Assembly: GCF_035994185.1 (NCBI RefSeq)
Contig: NZ_CP108538.1
Span: 8,683,501-8,747,500 of the forward strand
Direction: 5' to 3'
From: Streptomyces sp. NBC_01217
GTDB taxonomy: Bacteria; Actinomycetota; Actinomycetes; Streptomycetales; Streptomycetaceae
Length of the DNA: 64,000 nucleotides
Shown: one piece after another, positions 43,897 to 64,000 of the stretch
How positions within the stretch are numbered: the stretch's first letter is position 1
Layout: each line of letters starts with the position of its first letter
Notes under the pieces: generated by a model
What the model saw: the letters and a program-made list of their open reading frames with translations, nothing else
What the model was told of the DNA's origin: nothing
Database searches by the model: none
Made by a program: the position numbers and the translations under genes

Positions 43897-45147
43897 TTAG
43901 TGGGTGGGTGTGGGGTGGTTGTGTGGTGTGGGTTGTGGGTTTTGGGGTTTGTGTGTCGTGAGTGTGGTGATGGTCAGGAGGAGGGCTGCGCCGATGAGGA
44001 AGGGTGCGCGGAGTCCGAGGAGGTGGGCGATTATTCCGCTGGTGATGGCGCCGGTGGCGCTCATGCCTGCGTTGGTCATTTGGTAGGTCATGTTGACTCT
44101 GCCGAAGAGGTGGTCGGGGATGAGGTTTTGGCGTTGGGACAGGGCGATGACGTTCCATGTCAGTGATGCTGCGCCGTAGGCGGTGATGGAGCAGCCGAAT
44201 GCGATGGGGGAGGAGACGGTGCCTGCTGCGGCTATGGCTGCTGCTTGGGTGGTCATGGCGAGGGTGAGTGTTTTTCTGGGGCCGATCCGTTCGGAGAGTC
44301 GGGGGGTGATGGCGGCGCCGGTCAGGCCGCCTGCTGCGAATGCTGCCATGATCAGTGCGTAGCCGAGGCTGTCGAGTCCGAGTGTGTTTTTTGTGTAGAG
44401 GACCAGGATTGTGGTGAGGCCGACGATCACGAGGTTGGAGATGCCGCCGGTCAGGCAGAGGGTTCGTAGCTGTTGGTGGTGCCATAGCCAGCGGATGCCT
44501 TCGGTTGCTTCGTGGCGGATGGATGTTCGTGGTTTCGGGGTGGTTGTGCGTGCATGGAAATTTCCTGGGAGTGCGGCGATGAGGAGGACGGCGCTTGTGA
44601 TGCATGCGGCTTGCGCGGCGAATGGTGCGGCGAGTGTGGTGAGGAAGAGCAGGGCGCCGAGTGGTGATCCCAGGAGGTTGGCCATGACTTGTGCTGTTGC
44701 CTGGAGTGCTGCGTTGGCGCGGGTGCGTGCGTCCGGGGCGACGAGTGCGGGGACCATGCCGGCCCATGCGCCCGCGTACATGACCTGTGTGGTGCCGAGC
44801 AGCAGGGCGACTGTGCTGAGCAGTGCGATCGAGGCGTGTCCTGCGAGGACTGCTGTGGCGAACGCGGCGGCGGTCAGGGCGCGCAGGGAGTCGGTGATCA
44901 GCAGGACCCGTCGGCGGTCGAGGCGGTCCGCGAGGACTCCGGAGACCGGGGCGATGAGGAGCCAGGGCAGTTGTTCGGCGAGGAAGACGAGTGATACGTC
45001 GCGCGGGTCGCTGGTGAGGTGTGCGGCGAGCAGGGGCATTGCTGTCAGGGCGATGCCGTCGCCGAGGCTGGCCGCTGTCACCGAGCTCCACAGCAGGAGG
45101 AATCGGGGGCCGAGTGGGTTGTGCAGGGGCTGTGTTCGGGCCGGCAT
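43897..45147 (-). CDS. MFS transporter at the end of the NRPS cluster (probable peptide exporter)
   Basis: 416 residues with about 12 hydrophobic segments. It belongs to the MFS_3/EntS-like group: FLLLWSSVTAASLGDGIALT at the start, then LAEQLPWLLIAPVSGVLADR and LDRRRVLLITDSLRAL, the A-motif loop, and SQRQNLIPDHLFGRVNMTYQ before helix 10. The start is ATG 45147 with AAGGAGCCGCCATCA. It follows the hydroxylase gene by 172 bp on the same strand. Transporters of this type export siderophores and peptides, so secretion or self-protection for the NRPS product is likely. Confidence 0.92.
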   Translation of the reverse strand: MPARTQPLHNPLGPRFLLLWSSVTAASLGDGIALTAMPLLAAHLTSDPRDVSLVFLAEQLPWLLIAPVSGVLADRLDRRRVLLITDSLRALTAAAFATAVLAGHASIALLSTVALLLGTTQVMYAGAWAGMVPALVAPDARTRANAALQATAQVMANLLGSPLGALLFLTTLAAPFAAQAACITSAVLLIAALPGNFHARTTTPKPRTSIRHEATEGIRWLWHHQQLRTLCLTGGISNLVIVGLTTILVLYTKNTLGLDSLGYALIMAAFAAGGLTGAAITPRLSERIGPRKTLTLAMTTQAAAIAAAGTVSSPIAFGCSITAYGAASLTWNVIALSQRQNLIPDHLFGRVNMTYQMTNAGMSATGAITSGIIAHLLGLRAPFLIGAALLLTITTLTTHKPQNPQPTPHNHPTPTH

Positions 45148-45319
45148 TGATGGCGGCTCCTTCGCGGGCAGGTGACCGGGGCGGCGGTTCGGGCAGGTCG
45201 GGGGGTGCGGTCGGACGGCGGGGGAGTGCTTGTTGCGTTATCCCCCCCGGGGCGTGGTCATGTGCGGGGGTTCCGGGTGCGGTGTGCGCGCAATGTGTTC
45301 CTGGTCTGGTCGGGGCGTG

Positions 45320-61900: not shown

Positions 61901-64000
61901 GGTAGAACGCCGAGGGGGTCTGGTTGAGGACGGTGACGTGTTCGCGGGCGAGGAGTTTCAGGAGGTCGGCGGGTGATCTGCTGGTCAGGTAGGGGACGAT
62001 GACGAGGCGGCCGCCGGTCAGCAGGGGGCCCCAGATCTCCCACACGGAGAAGTCGAAGGCGTAGGAGTGGAATACCGTCCAGATGTCCTGGTCGCTGAAG
62101 CCGAACCAGTGGTCGGTTGCTCCCATCAGGCGTACGACGTTCTGGTGCGGTACCACCACGCCCTTGGGGCGGCCGGTGGAGCCGGAGGTGTAGATGACAT
62201 ACGCGGGGTGTGCCGGGGTGAGCGGGGACGGCCGGTCGGTGTCCGTGGGATCCGGGCAGGCGCCCGGGCAGGCATCCGTGTCCGTGTCGGGGGTGTTGGG
62301 TTCGTCGAGCAGGACGAACCCGGTGCCGCTTTTGCCGGCGGGCAGTTCTGGTGCGGTGTGCCGTGTGGTGACCGTGATGGCCGGTGCGGCATCGTCGAGG
62401 ATGTATCTGATCCGTTCGGCCGGGTAACCGGGGTCGATCGGTACGTAGGCGGCGCCGGTTTTGAGGACTGCCAGCAGTGCGACGACCATCTGCGCCGACC
62501 GTTCCAGTGCGACGGCCACGAACTGTTCGGGGCCTGCGCCTGTGGCCAGCAGGCGGTGGGCCAGGCGGTTGGCCTGCGTGTTCAGTTCGGCGTAGGTCAG
62601 TTCCTGTCCTTCGAAGACCACCGCGGTCGCGTCCGGGGTGCGGGCCGCCTGTGCCTGGAACAGTTCCGGGAGTGTGGCCGGGGGCACGTGAGCGCAGGTG
62701 TTGTTCCACTCCGCTTCGATCTCGGCGCGTTCCTGTGCGGACAGCACGTCCACCCGGGCTACCGGCATCTTCGCGTCGGTGGTGAATGCTTTCAGGATCT
62801 GCTGGAGGCGGGTGGCCCACTGCTCGATGTCCTGGCGGTCGAAGATGTCGGGCCGGTAGCTTAGGCCGAGGCGCAGTCGGTGTCCGGGGAGTGCTACCAG
62901 GCCGAGTGGGTAGTGGGTGGCGTCGCGTCCTTCGATGTCGGTGACTTGGATGCCGGGTGCGAGTTCGGTGAGGGTTTCGCTGTCGAGGGGGTAGTTCTCG
63001 AAGACGACGGTGGTGTCGAAGAGTTCGCCGTGTCCGGCGGTGCGCTGGATGTCGGCGAGCTGGATGTGCTGGTGGGTGATGAGTGCGGACTGCTGGTCCT
63101 GGATCCGGGCCAGGAGGCCGGTCAGGGGTTCGGCGGGGTCCAGTCGGGCCCTCACCGGCAGGGTGTTGATGAACAGGCCGATCATGTTCTCCACTCCGGC
63201 GAGTTCTGCCGGGCGGCCGGAGACCGTTGCGCCGAAGACCACGTCCTGTTTGCCGGTCATCCGGGAGAGGAGGACTGCCCAGGCTCCCTGGACCAGGGTG
63301 TTGAGTGTCAGTCCCGCGGCTCGTGTGGCTGTGGTGAGTGCTGTGGTGAATTCTTCGCTCAGTTCGATGTCGACCTGTTCGGGCAGGACCGGTTCGCGGT
63401 CGCTGCCGGCCGGGGCGAGGAGTGTGGGTTCCTCCAGGCCGGCCAGTGCCTGACGCCAGGCCTCCCGGCCTGCCTCCCGGTCCTGTGCGGTCAGCCACTG
63501 CAGGTAGTTCTTGAAGGCGGGGGCCGGTGGCAGGGCGGAGCTGTCCTGTTTGTAGAGGGTGAACAGTTCACCGATGACCAGTGGCAGGGACCAGCCGTCG
63601 AAGAGGATGTGGTGGCTGGTGAAGACCAGTACGTGCCGGTCGGCGGCGAGCCGGACCAGGGTGAAGCGCAGCAGTGGGGCGGTGGTCATGTCGAACCGGT
63701 GGATGCGGTCCTTGTCGAGCAGGTGCTGCAGCTGTTCGTGCTGCTGGTGTTCGGGCAGTGCGGTCAGGTCTGTCTTGCTCCACGGCAGTTCGGTCCGGGG
63801 GGCGATGATCTGGATCGTCTGCCCGGATCCGGCCTGGACGAATGCGGCTCGCAGGTTCGGGTAGCGCTCCAGCAGGGCCTGGCCCGCAGCCTTCAGGGCG
63901 TGTTCGTCGAGGTTTCCGTTCAGGTGCAGGGCGAACTGTGTGTTGTAGACGTCGACGCTGTGTTCGTCGTTGTTGTAGAGGGCGTGGAAGAGCAGACCGT
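52920..64000 (-). CDS. Non-ribosomal peptide synthetase A (5' end beyond window): C-A(Thr)-T-E-C-A-T-C-A-T
   Basis: About 3692 residues are visible; the frame is open to the right edge. Domains in order: C1 (64.0-62.85 kb), A1 (62.7-61.2), T1 (near 61.0), epimerase E (60.85-59.5; [13 protein letters not shown]), C2 (59.4-58.1; [10 protein letters not shown]), A2 (58.0-56.5), T2 (near 56.35), C3 (56.1-54.9), A3 (54.75-53.3), T3 (near 53.1). By my reading the pockets are: A1 DFWNIGMVHK (Thr), A2 DAADLGFVDK (nearest to Glu/Gln codes, weak), A3 DAYFWGVTFK (Val/Ile-like). The E domain implies D-Thr or D-allo-Thr at the first visible position, and C2 should then be a D-L condensing type. It is coupled to NRPS B by a GTGA overlap. 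Confidence 0.95.
55074..56132. repeat. Long repeat c, copy in NRPS A (C3), partner 51862-52920
   Basis: Most of the C3 domain is nearly identical to C4. Upstream of 56132 the protein reads EAEWLRTN; at the other copy that place is the gene border. Confidence 0.9.
58119..59335. repeat. Long repeat a, copy in C2, partner 62784-64000
   Basis: At least 1217 bp, offset 4665, in the same gene and frame. The partner runs off the window edge, so the repeat may be longer. It covers the C2 condensation domain up to the ILKAF linker. Confidence 0.9.
61339..62858. repeat. Long repeat b, copy in NRPS A (A1 region), partner 50207-51726
   Basis: The other copy of the Thr adenylation unit. The right boundary falls in the [18 protein letters not shown] linker region, which is also shared with the C2-A2 junction at 58119-58193. 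Confidence 0.9.
62784..64000. repeat. Long repeat a, copy in C1, partner 58119-59335
   Basis: C1 is nearly identical to C2. If C2 is a D-L type domain because it follows an E domain, then C1 should be too, which predicts another epimerase domain just beyond the window. Confidence 0.9.

Follow-up and report, generated by a model that had tools for sequence, protein, structure and literature searches.

A six-module non-ribosomal peptide synthetase operon of Streptomyces sp. NBC_01217 with a predicted acylated hexapeptide product

We analysed a window of 64,000 nucleotides from Streptomyces sp. NBC_01217 (C1:8683501-8747500 of a 9.03-Mb genome in two contigs; coordinates below follow window numbering), and added sequence to the right of the window edge from the same genome (positions above 64000). 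The window contains most of a non-ribosomal peptide synthetase (NRPS) operon, which is probably a lipopeptide operon making acyl-D-Val-D-Thr-(OH)Arg-Ile-Dhb-Ser, where Dhb is dehydrobutyrine. The gene order is mbtH-teII-nrpsA-nrpsB-hydroxylase-MFS, with all in-window parts on the minus strand. An initial annotation had described five adenylation (A) domains in transcription order, an MFS exporter on the downstream side, and a peptide longer than five residues with its 5' modules past the edge. Exactly five A domains lie in the window where it placed them, and the exporter is present. The peptide is indeed longer, but only one module is missing from the window, since NRPS-A runs off at 64000 with the sixth A domain (A1) past the edge in the same gene. 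Extending the contig to the right, as had been proposed, revealed this Val module with its epimerisation (E) domain, making six in all, along with a starter condensation (C) domain, a type II thioesterase (TE) and an MbtH protein.

Motif scanning of the two synthetases gave the order Cs-A1-T-E / C2-A2-T-E / C3-A3-T / C4-A4-T // C5-A5-T / C6-A6-T, totalling six C, six A, six thiolation (T) and two E domains, with a C domain in each module. The NRPS reading frames are open across 22 kb, domain matches are strong and the core motifs are found in all modules. Frames of 5276 and 2111 aa, together with these domain matches, rule out chance, and the six-module lipopeptide cluster is real and apparently intact, with an orphan product.

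The A-domain codes were aligned to GrsA numbering, using what we take to be the corresponding GrsA segment, with position 517 taken as K so that nine positions were actually read. The A1 code, DAYWWGGTFK, was read as Val, A4 as Ile and A6 as Ser, from code tables that we presume to hold here. Both A2 and A5 were read as Thr, and the available part of PMC12283262 gives their shared code, DFWNIGMVHK, under Thr. The E domain of the in-window Thr module carries HHLAVDG at residue 2773 of NRPS-A (P0001), and E domains come after Val and Thr2 only. Thus, the Thr with epimerase, the Val/Ile-like residue and the final Thr-Ser order of the initial annotation were all recovered, although the type of C6 makes the second Thr probably dehydrobutyrine. 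That annotation lacked the starter C1, the dehydrating C6 and the arginine-type affinity of the hydroxylase, and its reading is therefore revised.

We compared C1 to solved chains and to labelled C domains. The best matches were RzmA-Cs (298 bits), ObiF1 (237 bits) and CDA PS1 (224 bits), followed by EntF (173 bits), and the 20 nearest labelled C domains were all N-terminal. By these comparisons C1 is of the starter (Cs, lipo-initiating) type, hence an acylated peptide is expected. RzmA-Cs (PDB 7C1H) was shown to use acyl-CoA, according to the available part of PMC7804268, which fits the lack of an acyl-ligase or acyl carrier protein gene among the six operon genes. In a C1 search across 392 genomes of the genus, with four candidates scored per genome, only NBC_00414 (64%) exceeded 49% identity, self aside.

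The last C domain, C6, is only 26–28% identical to C2–C5. Among solved chains it is nearest to McyA (293 bits) and AmbE (198 bits), the next match scoring 112 bits, and we take the McyA domain to belong to the dehydrating C domains. C6 contains the motif RTIVLAAH at 48961-48984 (minus strand). A similar sequence, [K/R]SVLLAAH, is described as a CmodAA signature in the accessible text of PMC11342130. Our search pattern for this motif occurs once in NRPS-B (P0002) and once in NRPS-A of NBC_00414 (RAVLLAAH); it is absent from P0001 and from NBC_00414 NRPS-B, and the NRPS proteins of neither cluster hold a second copy. Domains of this kind in AlbB and LgnD are reported to act on the Ser or Thr held by the upstream carrier and to dehydrate it, which in AlbB precedes condensation, and conversion of Thr to dehydrobutyrine is reported for AlbB-C3 and LgnD-C2 (PMC10880069, excerpted text). 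Further dehydrating C domains are those of albopeptide AlbB, legonindolizidine LgnD and corallorazine Crz1; C6 has the CmodAA motif, while its predicted substrate is a Thr inside a hexapeptide. Given the dehydrating type of C6, which lies between Thr5 and Ser, this Thr is probably converted to dehydrobutyrine.

The initial annotation had called the oxygenase a dedicated, AsnO/VioC-like hydroxylase. The hydroxylase assignment and the likeness to VioC (130 bits) stand, but AsnO, at 95.5 bits, falls below the solved chains 6daw (182 bits), OrfP (179 bits), CmnC (151 bits) and VioC. We take 6daw to be NapI, presumably a desaturase. The NCBIfam models GntD (247 bits against a cut-off of 345) and VioC (211 bits against 418.6) both score below threshold, suggesting an enzyme related to GntD and VioC but orthologous to neither. 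It shares the metal ligands and the RWLKR region with VioC, OrfP, CmnC and NapI, at only 130–182 bits. All 65 aligned hydroxylases, its own sequence among them, conserve the H-T-E, the distal H and the RWLKR Arg. Family membership and facial triad place the protein with the VioC/OrfP type, and hydroxylation of L-Arg is predicted.

Residue 3 had been annotated, weakly, as Glu/Gln-like. The A3 code agrees with that reading, but the hydroxylase makes an Arg-derived residue more likely. The code DAADLGFVD matches the Arg consensus in the available part of PMC12283262 at seven of the nine read positions; taken by itself, the pocket code leaves the choice undecided. The assignment leans to Arg because the hydroxylase is nearer to arginine hydroxylases and because the A3 code is shared with the hydroxylase-bearing cluster of NBC_00414.

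Comparison with NBC_00414 (G109) identifies a sister cluster. Its synthetases read Cs-[DAADLGFVDK]-E-[DAYFWGVTFK]-E-[Thr]-C6-[Ser], plus [DVWHISLVEK] on a second gene, followed by MbtH, type II TE, hydroxylase and MFS genes, with no TE domain. Both clusters have the starter C, the four-residue code order, the dehydrating C domain before Ser and all four accessory genes, the exporters being 63% identical and at the same relative place. NBC_00414 differs in lacking the Val and first-Thr modules, in having E domains after residues 1 and 2, in its extra last module and in the SARP-type regulators nearby. It is thus predicted to preserve an (OH)Arg-Ile-Thr-Ser core. Among the best 120 of 6396 NRPS-B relatives, P0249 (82%) and P0280 (81%) stop after the T domain of the Ser module without a TE, while P0246 (68%) has a C6-type domain between two Ser-type modules and a TE. 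The relatives of A3 (best 120 of 929 scored proteins, 44–55% identity) do not include the NBC_00414 synthetase; since a large number of A domains raises a protein in this ranking, orthologues may be hidden.

We propose that the starter C would acylate the Val of module 1, probably with acyl-CoA as the direct donor, and that modules 1 and 2 would epimerise Val and Thr. The residue added by module 3 would be of the arginine type, with the 2-oxoglutarate enzyme hydroxylating it either ahead of loading or afterwards, and modules 4 and 5 would add Ile and Thr. C6 would then turn the carrier-bound Thr into dehydrobutyrine and join it to Ser, the chain would leave the line with no thioesterase in cis, the type II TE perhaps freeing it, and the MFS pump would export the product. 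While domain order, codes, domain subtypes and gene set are observed, we infer the Arg at position 3, its hydroxylation, the dehydration, the release route and the linear or cyclic form. The two clusters define a small family with a near-complete structural prediction that is checkable by mass spectrometry, and the hydroxylase, related to a hydroxyarginine metallophore type, is placed inside a peptide assembly line.

This relationship emerged from the genomic contexts of the hydroxylase. A match at E <= 1e-40 was found in 88 of the 392 genomes, and 41 matches in 40 genomes, the query's included, exceeded 400 bits, at 55–64% identity. Surroundings were fetched for 10 of the other 39 genomes, and G033 was added later. 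At nine of the ten loci the hydroxylase lies in a common operon, where seven further gene families recur each time and one more, an ABC ATPase, was clustered at eight of the nine; the G033 locus is also of this type. The genes were named on G206 alone (L038:14129 to L039:5248, nine genes, 11 kb), and include SbnA-, SbnB- and LysA-like genes, a MATE exporter and a peptide/nickel-type (nickel/opine) importer. NBC_00414 was the sole NRPS-bearing locus among the ten, and no NRPS domain was found beside the operon-type hydroxylases in the stretches searched. Thirteen named loci, two of them contigs already counted, gave a similar picture, with at least SbnB- and decarboxylase genes beside the hydroxylase in 12. 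In the thirteenth, Streptomyces microflavus JCM 4496, the hydroxylase match is split into two separate segments, 51% and 78% identical, and the 20 kb of sequence available there showed no NRPS domain. The SbnA/SbnB operon is likely the cluster for the metallophore ethylenediaminesuccinic acid hydroxyarginine (EDHA), whose description it resembles in size and gene number. The EDHA cluster is described as 11 kb, scab_5231 to scab_5311, nine genes by tag numbering (PMC8914351, available part).

In a tree of 65 hydroxylases, our enzyme (P0003) forms one clade with P0007–P0012, P0019 and P0102 (support 0.889), and the sister group of this clade sits in the EDHA-like operons. Of these nine, P0003 and P0012 were observed in NRPS surroundings, and P0102 and P0007 probably share them, judging by NRPS proteins on size-matched contigs (10525; 32080/32081). 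The presumed EDHA operon holds the closest relatives outside the NRPS clade, whereas here the enzyme is joined to an assembly line. Sampling of relatives placed 4 and 3 of 199 genomes above threshold, all previously counted, and gave no additional NRPS-type cluster. A plasmid search returned 63 matching records; the ten listed are 35–46% identical, and one other falls in the 60–80% band. A second hydroxylase occurs in the same genome at C1:2664543-2665505 (42% identity); a different NRPS region has its nearest condensation domain about 9 kb away, and a third match (34%) is close by. In addition, a separate family of starter-C NRPS clusters, in which MbtH is accompanied by a less closely related hydroxylase, occurs in G376, G262, G259, G236 and G116; at least G376 and G262 have a C domain without an A domain after the last E domain.

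Several observations weigh against the proposed product and favour other readings. The A3 code is equally close, at seven of nine read positions, to the code DAQDLGVVDK reported for Gln/Glu in the available part of PMC12283262. Moreover, in five other starter-C clusters with hydroxylases of 36–43% identity, none of the 10 readable codes is DAADLG-like (eight on the cluster's own strand; six A domains unreadable). Across the hydroxylase loci overall (15 sets), the figure is 0 of 13 readable codes, with 16 A domains unreadable by pattern, and a literature search for DAADLG found nothing related. Position 3 could therefore be Gln or Glu, with the hydroxylase using a free amino acid or a different residue as its substrate. 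We consider this somewhat unlikely, because the enzyme scores best with those named for arginine (OrfP, CmnC, VioC) and GntD, with AsnO behind, because its sister group lies in EDHA-like operons, and because NBC_00414 retains both the A3 code and the hydroxylase though the Val and first-Thr modules are absent. A further difficulty for the hydroxyarginine peptide concerns stereochemistry. A tree built from 114 C domains places C4 and C5 (0.991) together with those that follow E domains in this cluster and in that of NBC_00414, although neither has an E domain upstream. The tree left out large-set C domains without an LSPLQ-type start, pieces below 380 residues and spurious second matches inside starter domains, and it replaced an earlier C labelling that had 8 post-E against 675 post-T domains. 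Post-E C domains of G376, G262, G259 and G236 fall beside the C4/C5 group, among E-less ones, with weak support (0.373), so that shared descent inside the cluster family, rather than D-acceptance, may underlie the grouping. Alternatively, the operon would make one of a family of acyl-peptides around a hydroxyarginine-Ile-dehydrobutyrine-Ser core, in which C domains descended from D-acceptors follow E-less modules and either epimerise the donor themselves, in a way not yet described, or now take L donors, and the type II TE releases the chain. The placement of the four other clusters lowered our estimate for this version, which we judge very unlikely. Classical dual C/E domains were rejected for C4 and C5: the doubled N-terminal His motif, which we take to be their mark, is absent, and both read FHALYDEG. 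Clusters with and without E before related C domains form a natural pair for testing stereochemical gating.

The remaining objections concern integrity and novelty. No thioesterase closes the line, the motif scan finding neither a TE nor another release domain after the last T of NRPS-B, and insertion sequences (IS) lie on both sides of the cluster (IS copies at 37144-42687, a transposase gene at 72806-73900). The synthetases also contain identical tracts of 1523, 1520, 1169, 989 and 661 bp. The line might thus be decaying or silent, IS-bounded near the chromosome end and recently rearranged, having lost its TE and perhaps two E domains, as C4 and C5 are most related to post-E C domains and lack the upstream E that NBC_00414 has. 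This is unlikely: the two NRPS frames run open through 22 kb, every module keeps its core motifs, and NBC_00414 is also without a TE, so its absence is common to the family and not a peculiar decay. A terminal thioesterase is usual, not universal, in starter-C lipopeptide synthetases. The identical tracts are explained by very recent module duplication or gene conversion, and may be a misassembly artefact. A1 and A4 are 94.5% identical in protein, their DNA being identical over 661 bp and then 70% identical over 60 nt holding pocket position 278, so that Val and Ile pockets sit in otherwise near-identical A domains. It is also quite unlikely that the product is already known under another name, with only the cluster–compound link missing. 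Many older Streptomyces peptides have no assigned cluster, but no peptide with this order was recognised in a literature search (hydroxyarginine with NRPS/epimerization, lipopeptide or hexapeptide; dehydrobutyrine with arginine lipopeptide), whose scope was result listings and the openings of abstracts, most subscription papers and MIBiG lying outside it. Within the same sources, the N5-hydroxyarginine cyclic pentapeptides called pentaminomycins do not fit, nor does an enamidonin-type product, as the olenamidonin/enamidonin backbone Phe-Dpr-Dpr-Gly differs. A siderophore is weakly disfavoured, none of the six operon genes being an importer. We regard the probable hydroxyarginine lipopeptide operon as a good, otherwise ordinary candidate for a new natural product.

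Table 1 Features of the operon and its surroundings (window numbering; positions above 64000 lie past the window edge).
Feature	Position	Strand	Basis or remark
MFS exporter gene, 416 aa	43897..45147	-	Pfam MFS_1, 113 bits
Fe(II)/2-oxoglutarate hydroxylase, ~343 aa	45320..46351	-	Pfam TauD, 45.8 bits
NRPS-B, 2111 aa, C5-A5-T-C6-A6-T, no terminal thioesterase	46603..52938	-	Motifs and domain matches
A6, DVWHVSLVDK, Ser	46864..48438	-	Code alignment
C6, dehydrating (CmodAA) type by sequence	48439..49713	-	Solved-chain matches and motif
A5, DFWNIGMVHK, Thr	49984..51618	-	Code alignment
C5	51619..52923	-	Domain matches; tree, groups with post-E C domains
NRPS-A, 5260-5276 aa, Cs-A1-T-E-C2-A2-T-E-C3-A3-T-C4-A4-T	52920-68702/68750; in window 52920..64000	-	
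A4, DAYFWGVTFK, Ile-like	53241..54830	-	Code alignment
C4	54831..56210	-	Tree, groups with post-E C domains
A3, DAADLGFVDK, Arg or Gln/Glu-type, proposed (hydroxy)arginine	56451..58070	-	Code alignment
C3, condensation domain after E	58071..59435	-	Motifs, comparison, tree
E2, epimerisation domain of Thr module	59544..60863	-	Motifs, comparison
A2, DFWNIGMVHK, Thr	61086..62720	-	Code alignment
C2, runs past window edge	62721..64000	-	Motifs, comparison
Type II thioesterase gene	68837-69649		Pfam Thioesterase, 146.5 bits; nearest solved chains 6vap and RifR
MbtH gene	about 69646-69852		96.5 bits
LuxR-type HTH-only frame, 75 aa, upstream of mbtH	about 71248-71475 (8754748-8754975 of contig)		
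IS transposase gene, beyond LuxR-type frame	72806-73900		
1523-bp identical tract	58119..59641 = 62784-64306	-	E-C region
1520-bp identical tract	50207..51726 = 61339-62858	-	Thr A-domain region
1169-bp identical tract	59997-61165 = 64704-65872		Partly past window edge
989-bp identical tract	51932-52920 = 55144-56132		
661-bp identical tract	54088-54748 = 66646-67306		Partly past window edge
Two IS copies, 1724 bp each, inverted, 100% complementary	37144-38867 and 40964-42687		Each with a 463-aa DDE transposase

The hydroxylase start, an ATG at 46351, was picked by eye, and the open frame extends to 46495. Upstream of mbtH, the LuxR-type frame is a possible small pathway regulator. The 2.1 kb between the two IS copies carries HTH_21/rve-type integrase frames. 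Finally, a putative IS3-type transposase remnant, recognised by eye at 43460-43880, directly adjoins the MFS exporter gene at its 3' end and may have altered the C-terminus of the exporter.

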